This document shows, piece by piece, positions 25,769 through 38,728 of a DNA stretch of 38,728 nucleotides. The translations under genes and the position numbers were made by a program. The stretch lies in assembly GCA_002717745.1 (NCBI GenBank), contig PBBF01000022.1:9571-48298 (forward strand), in the 5' to 3' direction. The stretch comes from Acidobacteriota bacterium. GTDB taxonomy: Bacteria > Acidobacteriota > Vicinamibacteria > Vicinamibacterales > UBA823. Each line of letters begins with the position of its first letter. Within the stretch, counting starts at the first letter, position 1. The notes beneath the pieces are model-generated. The model was given only the letters and a program-made list of their open reading frames with translations, made no database searches and had not been told where the DNA came from.

Positions 25769-26590
25769 TCAGCGACCCTGGTTTGACGTCCAAGCGTCGT
25801 AGCGCATCCGTAGCGTTTTGACTGGATTCGCGTTCTCACTGGGCCGGATGTCTTCATCGGTCGCACTGAGATACATCTTGTAGTCACCGTTATTGAAGGA
25901 ATCGCCCGATGTGTCGTCTGCGTGGGCTTGAAGGATGTAGGCAACGTGCGCGGTCTTCTCATTACACGGTGCCTCAGGCTGCGGTTCGGTGTTGCAATCG
26001 CACCGACGATCGCCACCGTTCGAGTCGGCTGCTTCCATAGCAGCCATCACGCGGTCTGTCAGGCTTCCGGAAGCAACCTGAAGGGCAAAGACGGCCTCGT
26101 CGACCACGGCTTCGGCTGCAAGAATATTCCCCTGGATAGCGTAGAAGATTGGCTTCCCGGCGACTTGGCCCGTGGAGTGGAGCGACACGGCACCATTACC
26201 AGCACCGGAGTAACCAGCATGTCGGCCACGGAGGTCAACAATCCCGAATTGTCGGCGAGCGATTTCGGGGTCCTCTTGGAGCATCCTAATAATTTCGGTC
26301 GGGTCAGTTCCATTTTCGATTTGGTGATGGATTAGCTCTTGGTTGGCTCGCGTCCGGTCCACACCGGCCTGGGCGGCAGCGACACCCTTTCCAGGGACCA
26401 CGATCGCCTGAATATCCATTAGCCCCTTGGCCGAAAAGCCTTCAGAGAACCTACTTTGAGCCACACAGGTGGCAGATGCGATCACGACCTCACCGGTGCG
26501 TTGGTCAACCGCAACGACCGACCATGTAGCAAGGCCCACGGACGGAAACGACGATACGACCAATAAGGCCAAGGTTATCTGTTTCAACAT
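25769..26590 (-). CDS. Secreted DUF1028 (Ntn-hydrolase-like) protein
   Basis: 273 residues. The signal peptide (about 1-21, ending GLAT) is followed at once by TWSVVAVDQRTGEVVIASAT, the DUF1028 opening. Cleavage would leave Thr as the first residue, as in N-terminal nucleophile hydrolases. Further family features are GVAAAQAGVDRTRANQ, RQFGIVD, GYSGAGN and GNILA. A Cys-containing insertion (RRCDCNTEPQPEAPCNE) lies near residue 200. Substrate unknown. The Shine-Dalgarno AAGAGG is about 7 bp before the ATG. The divergent lipocalin-like gene lies 141 bp away; that gap holds no clear operator. Confidence 0.85.
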   Translation of the reverse strand: MLKQITLALLVVSSFPSVGLATWSVVAVDQRTGEVVIASATCVAQSRFSEGFSAKGLMDIQAIVVPGKGVAAAQAGVDRTRANQELIHHQIENGTDPTEIIRMLQEDPEIARRQFGIVDLRGRHAGYSGAGNGAVSLHSTGQVAGKPIFYAIQGNILAAEAVVDEAVFALQVASGSLTDRVMAAMEAADSNGGDRRCDCNTEPQPEAPCNEKTAHVAYILQAHADDTSGDSFNNGDYKMYLSATDEDIRPSENANPVKTLRMRYDAWTSNQGR

Positions 26591-26731: not shown

Positions 26732-27241
26732 ATGAACCCGAAGAAAAACGTGTGGTTGGCGGTCACTATTCTTCTTAGCTTGACGGTGAATCTTGCCGGC
26801 CATCGGGTATCCGCGCAGCATGTGGATTCGCTTGAGGTCGTGAGGGCAAGGTTTGTGGGTAATTACGAACTCGTGCGATACGTCAGTTTTCAACCCGACG
26901 GCAAAGTGACCCCAAGGAACTACGTTGCTCGAATCATGTATGACCCTCTCGGAAATATGTCAGCTATCGGTATGCCAAATGACCTGCCTCAGAGGGCGGC
27001 AGTGTCCGGCGGTGAGCGCACGGTCGGTGGCTTCGCCTATTTCGGGAAGGCCGAGATAGACATTGCTGCTGGAACGGTCACCCATCATGTTGTCGGTGCC
27101 CCAATACGCCCAGAACTGGTAGGCCAGGGAAGGGTACGGCACTACGAATTCGATGGAGATCTGCTTACCCTGTCAATCAAGGATGAAGAGGAGCGGGTTA
27201 CCGGGCAACTGACCTGGAGAAGAGTATGGTCGGGAAAGTGA
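26732..27241 (+). CDS. Secreted lipocalin-like domain protein
   Basis: 169 residues. Signal peptide about 1-28 (VTILLSLTVNLAGHRVSAQ). The mature protein is a short beta-barrel of the lipocalin-like type: FVGNYELVRYVSF, GKVTPRNYVARIMYDPLGNMSAIGM, FAYFGKAEIDIAAGTVTHHV and a final DLLTLSIKDEEERVTGQLTWRRV. It probably binds a small hydrophobic ligand or an envelope partner; the ligand is unknown. The start is certain: AAGGAGG (26720-26726) is 5 bp before the ATG, the best Shine-Dalgarno in this part of the window. A stem-loop covers its stop. Confidence 0.8.
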   Translation: MNPKKNVWLAVTILLSLTVNLAGHRVSAQHVDSLEVVRARFVGNYELVRYVSFQPDGKVTPRNYVARIMYDPLGNMSAIGMPNDLPQRAAVSGGERTVGGFAYFGKAEIDIAAGTVTHHVVGAPIRPELVGQGRVRHYEFDGDLLTLSIKDEEERVTGQLTWRRVWSGK

Positions 27242-27260: not shown

Positions 27261-27422
27261 GCAGGCAGGTGCAGTGCGACCAGCGTGCGCCGATCCGTAC
27301 ACGCTTTGAGAACTGGTGGGGTTCGTTCAAATTTCGGCTGTGGATACGAATTTGATCGGAACCTCCTGGCGAGAGACACCGTCTATGCCATCTGACTTGG
27401 GTTCGTTGATGGAGCGCAGTTG

Positions 27423-27911
27423 GTGGCAACCAAATTTGAAATGGGAATGATTAAGGTATTTTTTCTCATGGGTGTGGTCCTAATAGTGGCGTGTGAAACG
27501 CCATCCACGGCTCCGCCGCCTTTTGTGCCGGTGGGCGACGTTCAGCAGCTCATGGAAATGGTAATCGACCCGGCGGCCGACATCGTGTGGGAGTCGGTCG
27601 GGACGATCGTCACCCTCGATGGCACCGAAGAGATTTTTCCGAGGAGTGACGAAGAGTGGTCGACTGTCCGTAACAGTGCTATGGTGCTGGCTGAATCTGG
27701 CAATTTACTGATGGTCGGTGACCGCTCCAAGGGTGAGGGGCCCTGGATGATCATGTCCCAGGCGCTGGTTGAGGCCGGGATGGTCGCGCTTGAGGCCGCT
27801 GAGTCTAAGGACCCGGAGGCAGTCTTTGCGGTGGGTGAACAGATTTACAATGCCTGTGAAACCTGTCACGTGCTGTATTGGTACACTGAGGAAGACGCTG
27901 TCATCAGGTAA
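27423..27911 (+). CDS. Cytochrome c'-like monohaem lipoprotein
   Basis: About 162 residues. The N-terminus (KVFFLMGVVLIVAC) is a lipoprotein signal with the lipobox Cys near position 24, so the protein is membrane-anchored in the periplasm. The mature chain is four-helix-like and ends with the haem motif CETCH close to the C-terminus, the arrangement of cytochrome c'-type proteins. DPAADIVWESVGTI and a YPR-like FPRSDEEW segment recur in related proteins. The start is uncertain: GTG at 27423 (GGAG 8 bp upstream), TTG at 27420, or ATG at 27441/27447. It stands 31 bp before two PD.xGxW genes and is probably the first gene of their operon. Confidence 0.82.
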   Translation: MATKFEMGMIKVFFLMGVVLIVACETPSTAPPPFVPVGDVQQLMEMVIDPAADIVWESVGTIVTLDGTEEIFPRSDEEWSTVRNSAMVLAESGNLLMVGDRSKGEGPWMIMSQALVEAGMVALEAAESKDPEAVFAVGEQIYNACETCHVLYWYTEEDAVIR

Positions 27912-27942
27912 CGCTACGTCAGACTGGGAAGGGTTCACGGCT

Positions 27943-28767
27943 ATGCGCACTCAGGGTAGTGGTCTGGTGCTCGTTTTGGCTGCGGTTGCTGTTGCCGGAT
28001 TGCTGGTGACTACCGAGCAGGCTCTGGGCGCGGAGCAGAGCTACGAGTCCCCGCGTATCGCTGATGATCGGCCAGACCTAAATGGCATCTGGCAGGCTCT
28101 CGGTTCAGCGCATTGGAATATCGAAGGGCATGCCGCCCAGCCAGGCCCGATTGTCGCCCTTGGGGCGATTGGCGCGATACCTGGAGGACTGGGCGTCGTT
28201 GAGGGGGGACGTATTCCGTATCAGCCATGGGCTGCGGCACAGAAGCAGGAGAATTCCGAAAACTGGGTAACGGCCGACCCGGTCGTTAAGTGCTACATGC
28301 CCGGCGTACCGCGCGCCACCTACATGCCGTTTCCGTTTCAGATCGTGCAGACTCCAGACCACGTGCTAGTCACGTATGAGTTTGCTAGCTCGAGTCGGAT
28401 TGTCTATATGAGCCAGCCAGATTTTGAGAGTCCGTTTGACACGTGGATGGGGCATTCCCGCGGACACTGGGAAGGTGACACGCTGGTTGTTGACGTCACG
28501 GCCCAGGTTGGGGACACGTGGTTCGATAGCGCAGGAAATTTTCATAGCGATGCGCTGCATGTTATCGAACGCTACACGCCGATCAGCCCCAACGCACTTC
28601 GTTATGAGGTCGTCATTGAGGATCCAAATGTGTTCACGCGGCCGTGGACTATGAGCATGCCGCTCTATCGGCGGTTAGATGAGAACGTCCAGTTACTGGA
28701 ATTCAAATGTGTGGAGTTTGTCGAAGAGTTAATGTACGGACACCTTCGTAAGGACCCGACGCGATGA
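27943..28767 (+). CDS. Secreted PD.xGxW family protein (copy 1), function unknown
   Basis: 274 residues from the ATG at 27943, which has GGGAAGGG about 10 bp upstream. The frame opens earlier, at 27769, but that part overlaps the cytochrome gene. Signal peptide about 1-30. The mature protein opens RPDLNGIW (44-50) and carries CYMPGVPRATYMPFPFQI, a strand LVTYEF, RGHWEGDTLVVDV (from 173) and EDPNVFTRPWT, with a Cys near the end (EFKCVEF). It shares these blocks with the next gene, so the two are paralogues. Such proteins are abundant in Acidobacteriota, but no activity is known to me. Its stop overlaps the next gene's upstream region (ATGA). Confidence 0.8.
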   Translation: MRTQGSGLVLVLAAVAVAGLLVTTEQALGAEQSYESPRIADDRPDLNGIWQALGSAHWNIEGHAAQPGPIVALGAIGAIPGGLGVVEGGRIPYQPWAAAQKQENSENWVTADPVVKCYMPGVPRATYMPFPFQIVQTPDHVLVTYEFASSSRIVYMSQPDFESPFDTWMGHSRGHWEGDTLVVDVTAQVGDTWFDSAGNFHSDALHVIERYTPISPNALRYEVVIEDPNVFTRPWTMSMPLYRRLDENVQLLEFKCVEFVEELMYGHLRKDPTR

Positions 28768-28772
28768 GGAGG
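28767..28772 (+). promoter_or_regulatory. Ribosome binding site fixing the start of PD.xGxW copy 2
   Basis: AGGAGG, a full Shine-Dalgarno, ends 6 bp before the ATG at 28779. It lies inside the possible longer reading frame from the ATG at 28764, so the downstream ATG is the likely start. Confidence 0.7.
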
Positions 28773-28778
28773 TTGCCG

Positions 28779-29813
28779 ATGGGCGATCGATATTCAGTCT
28801 TGGCGGTAGTGTTCGGATTCGTGAGTTTTGCTTTGGGGATTTTGGTTCTCCCAGCTTCGGGCCAACCCGTACAGCCGGCCGATGCCACTGCGGCGACGGT
28901 GGCTTCGCCAGTGGCTCACACTCCCTGGGGCGTACCCGATCTCCAGGGTATTTGGGACTTTCGGACGATCACCCCCCTGCAGCGTCCAGATGATTTGGTT
29001 GATAAAACTGTCTTCACGCCCGAGGAGGCAGCCGAGTACGAAGCGGCACGTGTCGCGAGTCTTCACAAGGACCAACGCGTTGAGGACGGTCTGAAGCCAG
29101 AGACTGACGTGGCCTACGCTTACAACCATTTTTGGTGGGATTATGGCGACACACTTGTCGAAGACCGGCGCACGTCATTAATTGTGGATCCGTCCGATGG
29201 TAGGATTCCGCCTCTTACCCCCGATGGGGAGTTAAGAGGAGAACAACGACGGGAAGCTCGCAGTCGGCCCGCCCATGGCCCAGAGGACCGTAATGTGTGG
29301 GAACGATGCATCGTTGGGGGTAACGCGGGCCCGCCAATCACTCCGAGTGCCTACAACAACAACGTGCAACTACTCCAGGCTCCCGGGGTTGTCGTGATCT
29401 TCAATGAAATGATCCACGACGCCCGTGTCGTACCGATCGACGGAAGTGCGCACCTTCCTGATGACATCCGCCAGTGGCGTGGTGACCCGCGCGGGCGCTG
29501 GGAAGGTGAGACCCTGGTTGTGGAGTCGACGAATTTTAATGGAAAGACTGCATTTCGGGGGTCTGGTGCAGACCTGCGTTTAGAGGAGCGTTTTACGCGG
29601 GTTGGTGATGACCGGCTTCTCTACCAATTCACTATTGACGACCCAACGTCATTCACTAAGCCGTGGACGGCTGTTATTCCGATGAAAGCGACCGAAGGTC
29701 CGATTTTTGAGTACGCGTGTCACGAGGGGAACTATGGCATGGTCAATCTTCTGGCCGGAGCGCGTGTTCAGGAGGCGGAAGCCGCAGCACTTGCGACGAG
29801 GGAACCGCAATGA
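28779..29813 (+). CDS. Secreted PD.xGxW family protein (copy 2), function unknown
   Basis: 344 residues from 28779. Signal segment about 5-28. Blocks match copy 1: VPDLQGIWD (52-60 region), ERCIVGGNAGPP, a strand GVVVIFNEM, RGRWEGETLVVES (from 238), LYQFTIDDPTSFTKPWT and a Cys near the end (YACHEGN). It has a longer middle with Asp/Glu-rich turns (FTPEEAAEYEAAR). The pairing of conserved Trp, Arg and Glu in RGxWEGxTLVV suggests a shared binding site, but no enzyme can be named. The DUF6152 gene starts in the ATGA overlap with this stop, so the two are translated together. Confidence 0.8.
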   Translation: MGDRYSVLAVVFGFVSFALGILVLPASGQPVQPADATAATVASPVAHTPWGVPDLQGIWDFRTITPLQRPDDLVDKTVFTPEEAAEYEAARVASLHKDQRVEDGLKPETDVAYAYNHFWWDYGDTLVEDRRTSLIVDPSDGRIPPLTPDGELRGEQRREARSRPAHGPEDRNVWERCIVGGNAGPPITPSAYNNNVQLLQAPGVVVIFNEMIHDARVVPIDGSAHLPDDIRQWRGDPRGRWEGETLVVESTNFNGKTAFRGSGADLRLEERFTRVGDDRLLYQFTIDDPTSFTKPWTAVIPMKATEGPIFEYACHEGNYGMVNLLAGARVQEAEAAALATREPQ

Positions 29814-30316
29814 GGATCAGGTCAGCAACAGAGGTGCCATACGATAGGTGGCAAATTGAGGATGGAACTACACGACGAATACGGGTCGTAGTAGGGCTGG
29901 GCATTAGCTTGCTATTAATGCTCACCACAGTGCCGGTTGTAGCGCATCATGCGTTTGCGGCTGAGTTTGATGCGAATAAACCGCTCTCACTGACGGGTAC
30001 CGTGACCAAAATGGAGTGGATAAATCCCCACGCCTGGATCCACGTTGAAGTGACACGGGAGGATGGCACCGTTGAACAGTGGATGATCGAAGGTGGTACG
30101 CCGAACACGCTGTTTCGACGGGGGATTACGAGAGACTCTCTAATGCCGGGAACGACCATCGTGGTTGATGGCTATCAGGCGAAGGACGGCTCATTTAAAG
30201 CGAACGGCCGCAGTCTCACGCTGGAAGGTGGTGAGGAGCTGTTCTTGGGGTCATCAGGAACTGGCGCTCCGCGAGACGGCACCGATCCTGTGGAACGTCG
30301 GCGCCCGCCCGGTTAG
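29810..30316 (+). CDS. Secreted DUF6152 family protein
   Basis: 168 residues from the ATG at 29810; the frame is open further upstream, to 29717, but the ATGA overlap with the previous stop is the natural start. A membrane/signal segment about 24-45 is followed by HHAFAAEFD (46-54), the DUF6152 signature, and LTGTVTKMEWINPHAWIHVEV. His46/His47 and the INPHAW His could bind a metal or haem, by analogy only. The C-terminal 25 residues are Pro/Arg/Gly-rich and disordered. In many Acidobacteriota this family sits next to PD.xGxW genes, as here. Confidence 0.82.
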   Translation: MRIRSATEVPYDRWQIEDGTTRRIRVVVGLGISLLLMLTTVPVVAHHAFAAEFDANKPLSLTGTVTKMEWINPHAWIHVEVTREDGTVEQWMIEGGTPNTLFRRGITRDSLMPGTTIVVDGYQAKDGSFKANGRSLTLEGGEELFLGSSGTGAPRDGTDPVERRRPPG

Positions 30317-30404: not shown

Positions 30405-31355
30405 TTAAGGTGTCGAACCACCCTCACCGAGGTCGTGCCGGTCTAGAAACTGTTGTATCGTCTCGTAAATCTTTACCGTCTCCGTTCGGTTGAAGCCGCC
30501 GTGCCCACCGCCGGGGACGGTGTGGAGTTCATTGGGGACACCAGCGTCTTCCAGCGCAGCATGTAATCGAACGGCGTGCTCATACGGCACGACCGGGTCT
30601 GCATCCCCGTGAATCGTAAGAGTTGGCGGCAACTCTTTCCGCACGTAATTCAGTGGTGAAACGAGTTCGGCAATTTCTTCACGGTTAGAGAGGCTGCCTA
30701 GCCATTGGACGACGTAGCCTTTCGTATTTGGTCCCTCGAGCACGTCGTTAACGTCGGTAATACCGTACCAGTTGATGATTGCGGCTACCTCGACCGATGG
30801 GATCGTTGGCGGTCCTGAAAAGCTTCCTGCCGTGCACTCACGTCCGAGGCCAGTCGAGGGCGGTAGCATTCCGCTGGTCAACGCCAGGTGGCCACCAGCC
30901 GAGTTCCCAGAAGTAACGATCCGCGCAATGTCAAAGTTGTAACGTTCCGCGTTACGCGCGATCCACTGGAGCGCACACAAGCAATCTTCAACCGCGGCCG
31001 GAGCCCTAGAGACTTGAACGAGCCGATAGGTGACATTCACAACGGCCCACCCCTTTTCGAGGTAGGGTAGCAACCGAAGGACCTGCGACTCCTTAGTGCC
31101 CTGCACCCAGCCCCCACCGTGGATCATCATCAATACGGGTGTGGGGCCACTTGGGTCTGCTGGCAGATAGAGGTCAAGCTTATTTTCATAGTTGTTCGCG
31201 ACGTGATACACCACGTTAGGCACGACACGATACTGATTGGACACATTGGCCAGGAACGAGGTGGTCTCACTGAGTTGCGCACTTACTACACCGGACCCCG
31301 AGACCAGTATCATCACCACGAAAGCGAATGTGACAGGCCATTTCTTCTGAGGCAT
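30405..31355 (-). CDS. Secreted alpha/beta-hydrolase (carboxylesterase type)
   Basis: 316 residues with a signal peptide (about 1-27). Features of hormone-sensitive-lipase/BD-FAE-like esterases: oxyanion loop HGGGW (79-83), nucleophile elbow GNSAGG with Ser152, acid Asp253 in DADPVV, and His285 in GGHGGFN. It probably hydrolyses short-chain esters, carbohydrate acetyl or feruloyl groups in the periplasm; the substrate is unknown. The ATG has AGGAGG 5 bp upstream. It converges on the DUF6152 gene (88-bp gap, no clear terminator) and lies downstream of pyk on the same strand with 191 bp between, in which I see no gene. Confidence 0.88.
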   Translation of the reverse strand: MPQKKWPVTFAFVVMILVSGSGVVSAQLSETTSFLANVSNQYRVVPNVVYHVANNYENKLDLYLPADPSGPTPVLMMIHGGGWVQGTKESQVLRLLPYLEKGWAVVNVTYRLVQVSRAPAAVEDCLCALQWIARNAERYNFDIARIVTSGNSAGGHLALTSGMLPPSTGLGRECTAGSFSGPPTIPSVEVAAIINWYGITDVNDVLEGPNTKGYVVQWLGSLSNREEIAELVSPLNYVRKELPPTLTIHGDADPVVPYEHAVRLHAALEDAGVPNELHTVPGGGHGGFNRTETVKIYETIQQFLDRHDLGEGGSTP

Positions 31356-32969: not shown

Positions 32970-33157
32970 AACGGAGCCTGCAATGCGAAGTTTCTGTCCT
33001 AGTTTGCCTATCTCAGCATAGAAGTCTAGTTTTTCTGGTTTGATACGGCGATGTAAAATACGCGGAAATGATTGCAAGAACTAAGGGAGCTGCTGGCTCA
33101 GTCTTCTTGAACCAAAAGCGGCTTTTTGTTACCAAATGCCCCAGTGCGGAACTGCGC

Positions 33158-33943
33158 ATGCGACCGAGGACGATGAGGCGTGGTGTTCCTGGCATTGGCG
33201 CCATTGGTGTTGGCCTTTTATCTTTTGTGGTGCTCTGGACCCAACCCCTGTTTGCGGTGCAGATTTCCGATGAGGGTCAGGGTAAGCGGTTGTACGAAAG
33301 CCAGTGCGGGAGCTGCCACGGACCTTTGGGAAATGGTGGTAAAGGCGCTAATCTGGCACAACCGCGGTTGCGTCGTGCAACTGATGATCAGGCCCTCTTC
33401 AATATCATTCGTCGTGGGATCCGTGGTACTGAGATGCCAGGGTCGCCACTCACTCCTAGTCAGGTTTCGAGTATTGCAGCTTACGTAAAGACGCTTGGAC
33501 GTATCGAACCGGAGGATGTTCCTGGTGATGGCATCCGAGGTGAGACGGTCTATGCCAGGCTCAACTGCGCACGATGTCATACCGTCAGTGGCCGTGGTGG
33601 TAGTGTCGGCCCTGATCTCGATGATATCGGCGCGCGTCGGAGCGCAGCCCACCTCCGAGAAGCACTCATCGAGCCCGAGGAGTCCTTGCCTAATGGTTTT
33701 CTTCAACTTCGGATTGTTACAAAGGATGGTCGCACTCTAACCGGAATCAGGCTCAACGAAGATGGGTTCTCGATTCAGTTCAGGGATCTTTCAGGTCGTT
33801 TCTACTCGTTCTGGAAGGACGAACTCGACACGATCGAGCAGCAGTGGCAGCGCTCACCAATGGTGAGTTACGAAGCGCGACTGACCTCCGATCAAACGGA
33901 TGATCTTGTTGCATACTTGGTTTTACTTAAGGGAGCCAAATGA
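33158..33943 (+). CDS. Dihaem c-type cytochrome with a C-terminal haem-binding domain
   Basis: 261 residues from ATG 33158 (ATG 33173 is possible; an open frame extends to 33068). Signal segment about 11-33. Haem 1: CGSCH (50-54) with a likely Met93 ligand in GTEMPG, a standard class I fold ending IAAYVKTLGR. Haem 2: CARCH (137-141) followed by GPDLDDIGARRSAAHLREALIEPEESLPNGF and a beta-rich tail (VTKDGRTLTGIRLNEDGFSIQFRD), the module known from Planctomycetes-type haem-binding proteins (TIGR02603-like). The ATGA overlap with the PQQ gene makes this its probable electron acceptor. Confidence 0.88.
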   Translation: MRPRTMRRGVPGIGAIGVGLLSFVVLWTQPLFAVQISDEGQGKRLYESQCGSCHGPLGNGGKGANLAQPRLRRATDDQALFNIIRRGIRGTEMPGSPLTPSQVSSIAAYVKTLGRIEPEDVPGDGIRGETVYARLNCARCHTVSGRGGSVGPDLDDIGARRSAAHLREALIEPEESLPNGFLQLRIVTKDGRTLTGIRLNEDGFSIQFRDLSGRFYSFWKDELDTIEQQWQRSPMVSYEARLTSDQTDDLVAYLVLLKGAK

Positions 33944-35757
33944 AAACGCTCTTGCTTATTCTCATCACTGCTGCACCTGTGGCCGCTCAAGTTCCTTATG
34001 AGCGAATTCTGGGTGCTTCGTCCGAGCCTGAAAACTGGCTGACCTATTCCGGAACCTATGACGCACAACGCTACTCGACACTTGACCAGATTAATCGCGA
34101 CAACGTCGACCAACTTCAGCCAGCGTGGATTTATCAGACTGGATCGCTCCAGAAATTTGAGGTCTCCCCGCTCGTTGTTGACGGCGTCATGTACATTTCT
34201 GAGCCACCGAGTGATGCGGCCGCACTTGACCTCCGCACAGGACGCCCCATCTGGACTTACCGGCGTTCTCTCCCTCAGGGGATCGTGACCTGTTGTGGGC
34301 AGGTAAACCGTGGAGTGGCGCTTCTGGATGATCAGGTTTTTCTCGGGACAGTCGATGCGCACCTGGTTGCCCTTGATGCTCGAACCGGCCGGGTGCGCTG
34401 GGACGTTGAGGTTGCCGATTACACCATGGGGCATTCGGTGACGGTGGCACCGCTCGCGCTCAAGGACAAAATCATCGTTGGTATCGCTGGCGGGGAGTAT
34501 GGTATCCGAGGATTTCTTGACGCTTACGACCCAAGGACGGGCGAACGCCTGTGGCGTTTCTGGACCGTTCCGGGGCCCGGCGAGGTCGGTCATGACACGT
34601 GGTCAGGTGACAGCTGGCTCCGGGGTGGAGCACCGACGTGGGTGACTGGTGCCTATGACCCAGACCTTGATCTTCTCTACTGGGGAACGGGAAACCCCGG
34701 TCCGGATTTTATCGGCGAAGTACGCCTTGGAGATAACCTCTACTCCGAATCCGTGATCGCACTTGACCCTGATGACGGGGAACTGAAATGGCATTTCCAG
34801 TTTATCCCTCACGACATTCATGATTACGACGCCACCCAGGTTCCCGTGCTTCTCGACGCCGAATTTAGAGGTGAACCAAGAAAGCTTGTTGTATGGCCGA
34901 ATCGCAACGGTTTTTATTACGTAATCGACCGAGTCACGGGAGAGTTCCTGGTGGGAAAGGAGTTTGCTAAGCAGACCTGGGCTCTCGGTCTGGATGATAA
35001 CGGACGGCCTATTGAAGACCCTGCGACGATACCAAGTAAGGAAGGCGCCCTTGTCTATCCCGACGATGATGGAGCAGCCAATTGGTACAGCCCAACCTAC
35101 AGTCCCCAGACCAATCTCATTTATCAAAACGTTCGAGAAAAGGGCGGCATTTATTACCTCGCTGATGCGACTTACGAACCAGGAAAGATTTACATGGGTG
35201 CTAGTCGCCGCGTCGTTCCAGGAGAAGATCCCAAAGGGTTCTTGCGTGCGCTCCATCCCCTAACAGGTGATCTGGTTTGGGAGATTGCTGTCCACTCTCC
35301 ACCCTGGGCGGGTCTCATGTCCACCGCAGGCGGGTTGGTGTTTTCGGGAACCATGGAGGGTGACTTTTTTGCGGCAGATGCTCGAACAGGCGACGTTCTG
35401 TGGCGATTTCAAACGGGAGGCCGGGTCTACGCAAACCCAATCACGTATATGAGCGAGGGAAAACAATTTATTGCGATCGCTGCAGGAAACGCACTATTGA
35501 CCTTCGCACTACCAGGTTTGTCGCCACTTGGTTGGAGAAGCCCAGCCAATTGGGATCGAATTGAAGAGGGCATGTCCGAAGAACAGGTAGTGGCCATTTT
35601 GGGACCGCCAACGAAACGCGAGGAACAGTTTCTGAGTTACCTACAGCTGTCTTATGAAGGTCAAGTCGAAGGTAGTGGGTTCGTAAGTGGAAACATCACG
35701 CTGGAACGTAACCAGGTGGCAGGTTGGATGATTGAGCCGCCAGTTTTTGATCACTGA
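33940..35757 (+). CDS. PQQ-dependent alcohol-type dehydrogenase with a BamE-like C-terminal domain
   Basis: 605 residues with a signal peptide (about 1-16). The eight-bladed PQQ propeller starts NWLTYSGTYDAQRYSTLDQIN. Cofactor features of quinoprotein alcohol dehydrogenases are present: vicinal Cys118-Cys119, Glu186 (GGEYGIRG) and Asn252 (GTGNP) as metal ligands, and Asp295-Tyr296-Asp297 (HDYDATQ). The second Asp of this DYD motif is the extra ligand of lanthanide-type enzymes. Blades continue to about 520. The final 75 residues (NWDRIEEGMSEEQVVAILGPPTK, then ITLERNQVAGWMI) resemble the BamE/SmpA-OmlA fold, an unusual addition. It oxidises an alcohol or other substrate and probably passes electrons to the overlapping cytochrome gene's product. 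Confidence 0.88.
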   Translation: MKTLLLILITAAPVAAQVPYERILGASSEPENWLTYSGTYDAQRYSTLDQINRDNVDQLQPAWIYQTGSLQKFEVSPLVVDGVMYISEPPSDAAALDLRTGRPIWTYRRSLPQGIVTCCGQVNRGVALLDDQVFLGTVDAHLVALDARTGRVRWDVEVADYTMGHSVTVAPLALKDKIIVGIAGGEYGIRGFLDAYDPRTGERLWRFWTVPGPGEVGHDTWSGDSWLRGGAPTWVTGAYDPDLDLLYWGTGNPGPDFIGEVRLGDNLYSESVIALDPDDGELKWHFQFIPHDIHDYDATQVPVLLDAEFRGEPRKLVVWPNRNGFYYVIDRVTGEFLVGKEFAKQTWALGLDDNGRPIEDPATIPSKEGALVYPDDDGAANWYSPTYSPQTNLIYQNVREKGGIYYLADATYEPGKIYMGASRRVVPGEDPKGFLRALHPLTGDLVWEIAVHSPPWAGLMSTAGGLVFSGTMEGDFFAADARTGDVLWRFQTGGRVYANPITYMSEGKQFIAIAAGNALLTFALPGLSPLGWRSPANWDRIEEGMSEEQVVAILGPPTKREEQFLSYLQLSYEGQVEGSGFVSGNITLERNQVAGWMIEPPVFDH

Positions 35758-36410: not shown

Positions 36411-36490
36411 AATAGAGCCAGGTTAGCTGTTGTTCATGAGGAATATGCAATTCAGGAAGTCTGATGGTTAGCTGGAGTAAGAGGGTCATC

Positions 36491-38728
36491 ATGAGTCGAC
36501 AATACGTTACGAGTCTTGGGAACATTCTTGGTTGCCTCGTATTTCTGTCTTCGAGTTTGCTCACGGTGCAGTTGTTAACCGCACAGTCTGTGGAAGACTT
36601 TGTTAATCAACTTGAGTGGCGGAATATCGGGCCCGCGAATATGGGTGGCCGCATCAACGATTTTGCTGTGGTCGAGGCGGACCCCAACATCGTATTCGCT
36701 GCCACGGCCTCGGCTGGTGTCTGGCGGACCACCAACAACGGTGTCACGTGGGAGCCGGTGTTCGACGAACAGCCAGTCAGCAGCATCGGTGACATCGCGG
36801 TCGCGCCCTCCGACCCTTCCATCGTGTGGGTTGGCTCGGGGGAATCGAATAACCGTCAGAGTTCGTCTTGGGGAAACGGAGTTTACAAATCGACCGATGG
36901 TGGTGACAGTTGGACGAACGTTGGTCTCGAGGATACCCTGCACATTGGGCGCATAGTTATTCATCCTACTAACCCAGAGGTCGTCTATGTCGCTGCCACG
37001 GGTCATCTTTGGGGCCCGAATGACGACCGCGGGCTGTATAAGACCACCGACGGCGGGCAGACCTGGACGAACACCCTCTTTATTGACCGCGACACAGGCA
37101 TGACCGATGTCGCAATGGACCCGGTTAGCCCTGGGACGCTGTATGCGGCGTCCTACCAGCGGCGCCGAACCGCCTTCGGTTTCAGCGGCGGCGGGCCGGG
37201 CAGCGGAATTTATAAGACAACCAACGGCGGTGAGAGTTGGAGGCGGTTGACTGATGGCCTACCCGACGGAATCACTGGGAGGGTCGGCCTCGACATTTAT
37301 CGCTCTGACCCTCGCATCGTCTACGCCGTCGTGCAGAATGCCAACGGAGGGATGTTTCGGTCTGACGACCGTGGAGAGTCGTGGACGCGCATGAGCGACA
37401 CTAATCCACGTCCGATGTATTACAGCCAAATTCGCATCGACCCTTTGAACGATCAACGCATCTGGGCAGCTGGTGCGCGGATGGTCTACTCACAGGACGG
37501 TGGAAAGACGTTCGTCGATGATTGGGTTCAGACAATCCATGGGGATTTTCACGCGCTCTGGATCAACCCAGCCGACTCGAACCACATGCTTGCTGGCTCT
37601 GACGGTGGTGTGCATTACTCGTACGACCGAGGGAGAACTTGGGACTTTGTGAACACCATGGCTCTCGGTCAGTTTTACGAAATCGGTTACGACATGGAGA
37701 CGCCCTATAACATTTACGGCGGGTTACAGGACAACGGCAGCTGGGGTGGGCCAGTACGGACACTCTACCGTCGCGGTATCACCAACGAGGACTGGTTTAG
37801 GGTCGGCGGCGGCGACGGCTTCTATACACAAGTGGACCCAAATGATCCGACCACGCTCTATGTGGAGTCGCAAAACGGTAATGTGTCACGTCTCGATCTG
37901 GAAACGAGTGAGCGGAAATCGATTCGACCCGAACCGGAGGACGAAAGCGAGCGTTATCGCTTTGACTGGAACAGCCCGATTCTTATTTCGCCGCATAACT
38001 CACAAACGATTTATTACGGTGGCAATCGGCTCTTCAAATCGACCGACCGTGGTGATACATGGACTACGACCGATGACCTGAGCAAGGATCAGGATCGAGA
38101 TGAGATGCCCATCATGGGAGTTGAAGTGACGGATGATACCCCGTCACGCCATGATGGGATTTCCACTTTTGGCCAGATCATCTCTATCAGTGAATCGCCA
38201 CGGCGCGAAGGTGTGCTTTACGTTGGTACGGACGATGGGAATGTGCAGGTGTCCCAGGATGGGGGCACAAGTTGGCAGGAAGTGGCTGGGTTGATTCCCG
38301 ACTTACCGGAGGGAACCTATGTCAGCCGGGTGCAAGCGTCCTATCATGCCGATACCCGAGTGTATGCCACGATGGACGGCCACCGTAGTGACGACTATAG
38401 CGTGTACGTCTATGTCAGTGAGGATTCCGGTGACAGCTGGCGGTCGCTTGCTTCGAATATACCCGACGGGCACACGATGAATGTCATTCGTGAGCATCCT
38501 CGGAACGAGAACTTACTCGTGCTCGGCGGTGAGTTTGGTGCTTACATCACAATCAACAGAGGTGAAGAATGGCATCAGATCAAGGGAGCAGTGCCGACGG
38601 TACCGGTCGACGACATTGCGATCCATTCACGAGACAATGACCTCATTCTTGGCACGCATGGTCGGAGCATCTGGGTGCTCGACGACATGACCCCACTTGA
38701 GAAACTGAGCGAGGGAGTGCTTGCGTCG
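36491..38728 (+). CDS. VPS10/Asp-box beta-propeller protein, 3'-truncated
   Basis: 746 codons are visible, open to the right edge. ATG at 36491 with GAGGG 5 bp upstream. Signal peptide about 1-32. LEWRNIGPANMGGRINDFAV opens a WD40/YVTN-like sortilin-type propeller. At least ten Asp-box turns recur (TDGGDSW, TDGGQTW, TNGGESW, DDRGESW, QDGGKTF, YDRGRTW, TDRGDTW, QDGGTSW, EDSGDSW, NRGEEW). A conserved GGLQDNGSWGGP sits mid-chain and LGTHGRSIWVLDD near the end. Databases often call such proteins glycosyl hydrolases, but no catalytic residues support that; extracellular binding or a peptidase-linked role is equally possible. About 250-350 residues probably lie beyond the window. Confidence 0.85.
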   Translation, partial: MSRQYVTSLGNILGCLVFLSSSLLTVQLLTAQSVEDFVNQLEWRNIGPANMGGRINDFAVVEADPNIVFAATASAGVWRTTNNGVTWEPVFDEQPVSSIGDIAVAPSDPSIVWVGSGESNNRQSSSWGNGVYKSTDGGDSWTNVGLEDTLHIGRIVIHPTNPEVVYVAATGHLWGPNDDRGLYKTTDGGQTWTNTLFIDRDTGMTDVAMDPVSPGTLYAASYQRRRTAFGFSGGGPGSGIYKTTNGGESWRRLTDGLPDGITGRVGLDIYRSDPRIVYAVVQNANGGMFRSDDRGESWTRMSDTNPRPMYYSQIRIDPLNDQRIWAAGARMVYSQDGGKTFVDDWVQTIHGDFHALWINPADSNHMLAGSDGGVHYSYDRGRTWDFVNTMALGQFYEIGYDMETPYNIYGGLQDNGSWGGPVRTLYRRGITNEDWFRVGGGDGFYTQVDPNDPTTLYVESQNGNVSRLDLETSERKSIRPEPEDESERYRFDWNSPILISPHNSQTIYYGGNRLFKSTDRGDTWTTTDDLSKDQDRDEMPIMGVEVTDDTPSRHDGISTFGQIISISESPRREGVLYVGTDDGNVQVSQDGGTSWQEVAGLIPDLPEGTYVSRVQASYHADTRVYATMDGHRSDDYSVYVYVSEDSGDSWRSLASNIPDGHTMNVIREHPRNENLLVLGGEFGAYITINRGEEWHQIKGAVPTVPVDDIAIHSRDNDLILGTHGRSIWVLDDMTPLEKLSEGVLAS

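Follow-up and report, generated by a model that had tools for sequence, protein, structure and literature searches.

A conserved gene set of PD.xGxW, DUF6152, DUF6644 and cytochrome proteins in Acidobacteriota, and its tentative reading as an envelope electron-transfer module

A stretch of 38,728 nucleotides from an Acidobacteriota genome (contig PBBF01000022.1, hereafter the window) carries four consecutive genes for a cytochrome c'/c556-like lipoprotein, two paralogous proteins with a PD.xGxW motif (PD-A and PD-B) and a DUF6152 protein. Their recurrence in other genomes indicates that PD.xGxW, DUF6152, a pair of DUF6644 proteins and a class II cytochrome very likely form a real module. Tentatively, we see in the four genes one locus of a conserved module for electron transfer in the envelope, equipped with exchangeable binders of hydrophobic ligands; we infer the chemistry of this module. 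According to the list of open reading frames (ORFs) of the window and their translations, the four ORFs are co-directional on the + strand (27441-30316) and all encode exported proteins. The features are:

27441..27911, + strand: cytochrome c'/c556-like monohaem lipoprotein; lipobox IVAC, CETCH near the C-terminus, candidate axial Met38
27943..28767, + strand: PD-A, short-type PD.xGxW exported protein of 274 amino acids; calycin fold predicted via homology to PD-B
28764..29813, + strand: PD-B, long-type PD.xGxW exported protein of 349 amino acids; predicted calycin barrel
29810..30316, + strand: DUF6152 (PF19649, E 2.2e-34) exported protein; predicted oligonucleotide/oligosaccharide-binding (OB) fold, predicted mature N-terminus His-His, NPH motif
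29945..29950, + strand: codons for H46-H47, with which the mature DUF6152 protein is predicted to begin (by the -1/-3 rule only)
26732..27241, + strand: Lipocalin_5 (PF13924, E 3e-10) exported protein, a possible extra member of the unit

The initial annotation had described four consecutive exported proteins with 31-bp or overlapping junctions, and this layout was confirmed: a gap of 31 bp separates the cytochrome gene from that of PD-A, while PD-A/PD-B and PD-B/DUF6152 share 4-base ATGA overlaps. A hydrophobic export signal was recognized by eye at the N-terminus of each protein, as was the lipobox-like IVAC of the cytochrome, whose true start may lie up to 7 codons further upstream than 27441 (at an in-frame TTG at 27420 or GTG at 27423). 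Among the four proteins, DUF6152 alone was recognized by Pfam/NCBIfam above cut-off. The source genome (G000) has 1.51 Mb and is 62% complete, and the window locus is the sole locus of this kind found there.

Co-occurrence and clustering of the gene set

In 197 Acidobacteriota genomes the families were found in nearly the same set: PD.xGxW in 23, DUF6152 in 24, the cytochrome in 22 (one to six matches per positive genome) and DUF6644 in 23. The genomes with DUF6152 were the 23 with PD.xGxW plus G180, those with the cytochrome were the same 23 minus G211, and those with DUF6644 above cut-off were the 24 with DUF6152 minus the source genome; matches under the cut-off were seen in G011 and G012. 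Given as both present, only the first, only the second and neither, the counts were 22, 1, 0 and 174 for PD.xGxW and the cytochrome, and 23, 1, 0 and 173 for DUF6152 and DUF6644. For PD.xGxW and DUF6152 they were 23, 0, 1 and 173 by genome (Fisher 4e-29) and 15, 0, 1 and 108 of 124 by genus (2e-18), p-values that are inflated, as nine positive genomes belong to family f53 and eight of them to a single genus (g87). It should be noted that 11, 17 or 23 candidates were scored per genome in these scans, so that weak matches could be hidden. In an order-level sample of 40 related genomes, PD.xGxW was present in 17, DUF6152 in 18 (up to 34 matches per genome), the cytochrome in 18 and DUF6644 above cut-off in 16. 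All 17 genomes with PD.xGxW had the cytochrome (17, 0, 1 and 22 in the corresponding table), and 16 of the 17 had DUF6152.

The families are also neighbours. Of the 37 cytochrome places, 20 have DUF6152 no more than 3 kb away, where 0.46 would be expected; after removal of the 10 loci that had seeded the profile, 12 of 27 do. When DUF6152 loci were found by the DUF6152 model alone, a PD gene was present within 1.5 kb in 26 of 30, and three of the four without it (L011, L014 and L020) are stretches cut by contig ends. The order PD-PD-DUF6152-DUF6644-DUF6644-cytochrome was observed in L074 and L075 (family f2), in L081 (Bryobacterales) and in L155; the same genes in another order in L076, L082 (a groundwater acidobacterium) and L158 (Sulfopaludibacter); and the set with one PD gene in L063 and L067 (family f1) and in L198-L200. 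L201 holds the full set with overlapping frames. ORF calling in GC-rich loci was greedy, and antisense frames may have been picked.

A plasmid of Novosphingobium humi (L192) bears the cytochrome, the DUF6644 pair, PD and DUF6152, and in Azospirillum (L193) DUF6152 and DUF6644 are adjacent, with neither PD nor cytochrome in the 16-kb stretch. The neighbourhood, for which a lack of conservation beyond close strains had been named in the initial annotation as a refutation of its proposal, was found both in scattered lineages of the phylum and outside it. On a Croceibacterium plasmid (L191), two DUF6152 genes, a PD.xGxW gene and a TonB receptor gene are located between genes for G8-domain proteins.

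Predicted folds and conserved residues

PD-A can be aligned with PD-B at 33% over 127 residues (E 1.2e-17), which corroborates the motifs that had been listed as common to both. Two Cys (C182 and C319 of PD-B), one Gly and one Glu are invariant in 127 aligned PD.xGxW members; G62, W64, E275 and R276 are kept in at least 90% of them. The suggested origin of the pair by duplication stands, but not as a local event. In the tree, PD-A and PD-B belong to two separate deep clades (SH-like approximate likelihood ratio test, SH-aLRT, of 98 for the 15-row PD-A clade, by a quick method), and on this ground a recent local duplication was rejected. Since the clades are deep and the tandem PD-A then PD-B recurs in L081, L082 and L092, the duplication is old.

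No Pfam or NCBIfam family matched PD.xGxW above cut-off, the known calycin families of both databases gave no match at E up to 0.1, and a sequence search of the PDB returned nothing useful and no calycin. The AlphaFold model of PD-B, built on the 127-member alignment, reached a predicted local distance difference test score (pLDDT) of 86.6 and a predicted template modelling score (pTM) of 0.81, and presents 8 consecutive strands in residues 200-310. Its best Foldseek match was a tardigrade secretory abundant heat soluble (SAHS) protein (E 1.3e-3, target-normalised TM 0.51). The Foldseek matches were re-examined with VIA-align, in which Z 7-8 is usual even for models that lack a clear match; FABP5 (4azq) was aligned with Z 9.9 and a root-mean-square deviation (rmsd) of 2.9 over 113 residues, and the 50 matches listed (Z 9.0-9.9) were fatty-acid/retinoid binders, NanoLuc-type luciferases and one SAHS protein. 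Calycins carry G-x-W before the barrel and a conserved basic residue late in it; in PD.xGxW, G62 and W64 precede the predicted barrel and R276 lies late in it. We regard the calycin assignment of PD-B as a coherent result deserving moderate confidence, and the PD.xGxW proteins as predicted calycin barrels.

The family is large. Among the best 150 candidates per genome, six genomes gave 101, 112, 43, 83, 78 and 10 profile matches, numbers that in four of the six mean "at least" and that run slightly above the count of genes, as in G000, where 2 PD genes gave 3 matches. Many divergent paralogues have been reported in Solibacter, and the accessible part of that paper names none of the present families (PMC3174227). 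A record titled 'Klebsiella pneumoniae' metagenome-assembled genome (L121), probably a mislabelled environmental bin, contains a PD.xGxW gene 45% identical to PD-B near an amidase-like gene (by eye).

The DUF6152 protein of the window scored 117.9 bits against PF19649, well over the cut-off of 27. Two adjacent His follow directly after the hydrophobic stretch and precede an NPH motif in 81 of 82 distinct DUF6152 genes, and HH is preceded by Ala in 77, by Gly in 3 and by Ser in 1; the sole exception is a weak match in L204. In L167 and L110 the DUF6152 ORFs without HH share the NPH stretch with an HH row, the late start being a matter of ORF choice. The Ala-HH junction is present as well in four DUF6152 proteins on three Alphaproteobacterial plasmids. 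In alignment A5, whose 70 rows were chosen for HH, H1, H2, N27, P28 and H29 are invariant. The conserved His of the window protein are H46, H47 and H74, and the earlier description of the partner as "His-rich" is a loose one. The model of the mature protein (pLDDT 76.7) aligns with PriB, an OB fold, with Z 9.7 and an rmsd of 2.4 over 81 residues, and NPH sits at the turn after the first strand; a PDB sequence search with DUF6152 gave nothing useful. DUF6152 is predicted to be an OB fold, and its His-His N-terminus together with NPH is, from the conservation pattern, a candidate metal site. In the accessible part of a study that found metal proteins via an N-terminal His after the signal peptide, the families are DUF4198, DUF6702 and Ang-1/2, not DUF6152 (PMC12537917).

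DUF6644 (PF20349) is presumably a membrane protein, to judge from its hydrophobic sequence, and its genes often occur as tandem pairs. Of 68 aligned distinct rows, 62 cover the first conserved His position and all 62 keep the residue; the second position is covered by 67 and holds His in 34. The best other Pfam matches of five DUF6644 proteins were DUF2214 (E 0.0015 and 0.026) and DUF3754 (0.038). The largest DUF6644 set seen here was in G196 (family f69), with 14 matches, and the same genome has at least 23 for DUF6152. In two f9 genomes, PepSY_TM-like proteins (L198:8253-9812 and L200:6874-8466, the latter under the Pfam cut-off) are encoded next to the cytochrome gene and the DUF6644 pair or in between; L198 and L200 were the only cases of PepSY_TM matches flanking the pair, and these neighbours may be a further hint of membrane redox. 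A link to glucose/sorbosone dehydrogenase (GSDH) was considered, as family f1 and G015 have such a gene adjoining the DUF6644 pair, and was rejected for too few independent cases; in L130 a GSDH gene lies 7 kb from the pair in the same stretch.

In the window cytochrome, CETCH occupies residues 139-143 of 156; its relatives were pre-selected for CxxCH, so the count of this motif among them proves nothing. The protein falls below the cut-off of PF01322 (cytochrome c'), with E 0.21 and 13 bits against 26.5, and the best of four relatives scanned reached E 6.8e-4 and 21 bits, also under it. The family profile A2, made from ten relatives taken from loci already near DUF6152 or PD, matched solved cytochrome c' chains in the C-terminal part only (E 9.9e-5 for 8rkp, 1e-4 for 5b3i). 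The cytochrome c'-like label of the initial annotation holds for the family profile, but not for the window protein alone. In c556-type class II cytochromes the axial Met is located in the first helix. Met38 is kept in all 37 distinct cytochrome genes that have the position (39 genes, 2 of them gapped there) and could be the axial haem ligand, a loose assignment because the spacing from Met to the haem His varies: 105 residues in 18 of the 37, among them the window protein, and between 95 and 132 in the remaining 19.

Electron transfer weighed against other readings

Since DUF6644 has a conserved His and a class II cytochrome lipoprotein is encoded next door, electron transfer from membrane to periplasm is the simplest reading. 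Electrons would cross the periplasm between the membrane DUF6644 pair, which perhaps holds haem b or quinone via the conserved His, and the lipoprotein cytochrome. The calycins would capture small hydrophobic ligands (substrate, product or quinone-like), their duplication giving the module many ligand specificities, and DUF6152 would hold or deliver metal or haem through its N-terminal His. The initial annotation had proposed a secreted redox or metal system of unknown job; the conserved set, the candidate axial Met and the predicted His-His N-terminus fit this interpretation and support it in part. A bolder version, in which a haem-b-type DUF6644 pair, the c556-like lipoprotein and the N-terminal-His OB protein would be the fixed electron/metal core of an envelope respiratory chassis serving dozens to about a hundred exchangeable calycin receptors per genome, seems to us quite improbable. 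If it were true, mostly uncultured bacteria would hold a large repertoire to sense or oxidise hydrophobic molecules.

Several observations weigh against electron transfer as we propose it. A single genus supplies eight of the positive genomes, the best Foldseek E of PD-B is only 1.3e-3, the Met assignment is loose, and residues 1-3 of the DUF6152 model have pLDDT below 50, with no ordered N-terminal His site predicted. L202 combines DUF6644, the cytochrome and DUF6152 without PD. Around 80 named PD loci, DUF6152 was found within 1.5 kb in 26, DUF6644 within 6 kb in 5 and the cytochrome within 8 kb in 6; most PD copies therefore live apart from the core. The genes flanking the core clusters vary widely, with 102 Pfam families among 98 neighbours; at most 4 of the 98 have a Pfam family in common, and no substrate enzyme common to every core cluster was found. 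In addition, pyrroloquinoline quinone (PQQ) dehydrogenases had seemed to stand near PD genes more often than any other family, with 8 of the 102 neighbours scanned. In a density control over four genomes, with 150 PQQ and 147 PD places among the matches listed, 6 of the 150 PQQ places lay no more than 1 kb from a PD place where 6.6 were expected, and the counts at 2 kb (10, expected 9.4) and 5 kb (22, expected 17.8) showed no excess either; this link was dropped. Being at chance, it provides no electron source in the PQQ dehydrogenases.

The window locus itself lacks DUF6644, and none was found in the whole of G000, which counts on the same side. The order (lipocalin)-cytochrome-PD-A-PD-B-DUF6152 is common to the window and G003 (L061), and the equivalent in G005 (L062), again a point against our reading, is lipocalin-PD-A-PD-B-DUF6152, without the cytochrome. 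G002-G005 possess a second locus with GSDH (by Pfam on the G002 copy), the DUF6644 pair, cytochrome, a PD gene and DUF6152; it was not found in G000, where incompleteness may explain its absence. As the G005 equivalent has no cytochrome and the second locus of G002-G005 has one, the lipocalin-PD-PD-DUF6152 unit may be the older part of the window locus, joined later by a copy of the cytochrome gene. Under electron transfer, the DUF6644 pair would be supplied to the window locus from the second locus, as in the sister genome G003.

The predicted folds neither unite calycin, OB fold and class II cytochrome in a common role nor exclude one, and other readings deserve attention. In copper trafficking like that of CopC-CopD or YcnI-YcnJ, DUF6152 would take Cu by its N-terminal and NPH His and hand it to DUF6644, and the cytochrome and calycins would be clients or redox helpers. 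This would suit the near-constant HH...NPH arrangement with its preceding Ala, Gly or Ser, the five invariant residues of A5 and the adjacency of DUF6152 and DUF6644 alone in Azospirillum; moreover, secreted N-terminal-His proteins can be metal proteins, those in the accessible part of the source being of other families (PMC12537917). However, the same low pLDDT at residues 1-3 speaks against it, as do the predicted OB fold, which is not the sandwich of CopC, and the three plasmid stretches, whose annotation contains no copper gene. The Pfam matches of the five DUF6644 proteins at E up to 10 did not include CopD, in a search in which HMMER filters drop weak matches. We consider this explanation rather unlikely.

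A ligand-binding/stress or envelope-lipid module is also unlikely, in our judgement. There the calycins would bind lipids or hopanoid-like molecules and the cytochrome, as a c' type, would sense or scavenge NO, CO or O2; the predicted calycin fold and the Lipocalin_5 neighbour agree with the former, and the resemblance of the family profile to cytochrome c' chains, the closest among solved structures, and a loose Met spacing that leaves an open haem possible agree with the latter. Nevertheless, a Met in 37 of 37 genes would favour a six-coordinate electron carrier over an open, gas-binding haem, as in c556 proteins. Finally, the families might merely be abundant in the same bacteria and do no joint work, as an effect of genome architecture: PD.xGxW gives 43-112 matches in 5 of the 6 genomes counted, PQQ dehydrogenases at least 75 in 3 of 4, and the two are near each other at chance. 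This is very improbable, because the cytochrome and DUF6644, although low in copy, show the same presence and absence and the same tight clustering, also outside the phylum.

Surrounding genes, novelty and comparison with known systems

The Lipocalin_5 gene lies directly upstream of the cytochrome gene, and its position is kept in G003 and G005; in this bacterial family it may belong to the unit as well. Downstream of the DUF6152 gene, on the opposite strand, a BD-FAE esterase gene is located at 30405-31355. Elsewhere in the window there are a DUF1028 protein gene (25769-26590, opposite strand, syntenic in G003), a cytochrome c gene with two matched stretches immediately followed by a PQQ-dependent alcohol dehydrogenase gene (33068-35757; PF01011, E 4.6e-92) and a gene for a Sortilin/BNR beta-propeller protein (36464-38728) that runs past the window end. 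The cytochrome c/PQQ pair starts about 2.8 kb from the DUF6152 gene, the dehydrogenase itself occupying 33940-35757. PQQ-dehydrogenase-type matches number at least 75-76 in each of G016, G027 and G037 (74 candidates scored per genome), a striking expansion alongside 78-112 PD.xGxW matches.

Acidobacteriota are abundant in soils and poorly understood. The literature search found no paper naming DUF6152 or DUF6644, and searches on Vicinamibacter paralogues, Acidobacteria cytochromes and c556/PQQ found nothing on these genes. The folds are known; in the literature searched there appears to be no description of how these genes combine, how the combination is conserved or how large the PD family is. 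The DUF6644 pair, the calycin and OB folds, the roughly 100-copy expansion and the Lipocalin_5 gene go beyond the initial annotation. PD.xGxW thus amounts to dozens to about 100 genes in some Acidobacteriota genomes, with no Pfam/NCBIfam model above cut-off, and it is tied by presence and clustering to three families, two of them formally of "unknown function". In this way DUF6152, DUF6644 and PD.xGxW are joined into one testable system.

As for known systems, the window cytochrome family resembles class II cytochromes c (c'/c556) in its single C-terminal CxxCH and in the profile match to solved cytochrome c' chains at about 1e-4, but the window protein is under the PF01322 cut-off, is a lipoprotein and is clustered with families of unknown function. 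With DUF2214 (PF09980), a family of predicted membrane proteins, DUF6644 shares a weak match of two of the five proteins, which stays under the cut-off; DUF6644 differs in often forming tandem pairs beside DUF6152 and the cytochrome. The window DUF6152 is a full member of PF19649, whose function is formally unknown. Its predicted mature N-terminal His and second conserved His recall the histidine-brace copper proteins, a likeness at the sequence level with cleavage placed by rule. Being small, exported and starting with His, it also resembles the N-terminal-His metal proteins of PMC12537917. With CopC-CopD and YcnI-YcnJ it has in common that a small exported His-starting protein is encoded beside a hydrophobic, presumably membrane, protein; however, DUF6152 is a predicted OB fold and no homology was detected. 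The PD.xGxW proteins, with their predicted 8-strand barrel, G-x-W at the start and late conserved Arg, are comparable to calycins (FABP and other intracellular lipid-binding proteins (iLBP), lipocalins, SAHS, NanoLuc), but they add N-terminal helices, a C-terminal helix and two invariant Cys, match no Pfam/NCBIfam family above cut-off and no PDB sequence, and reach up to about a hundred copies per genome.

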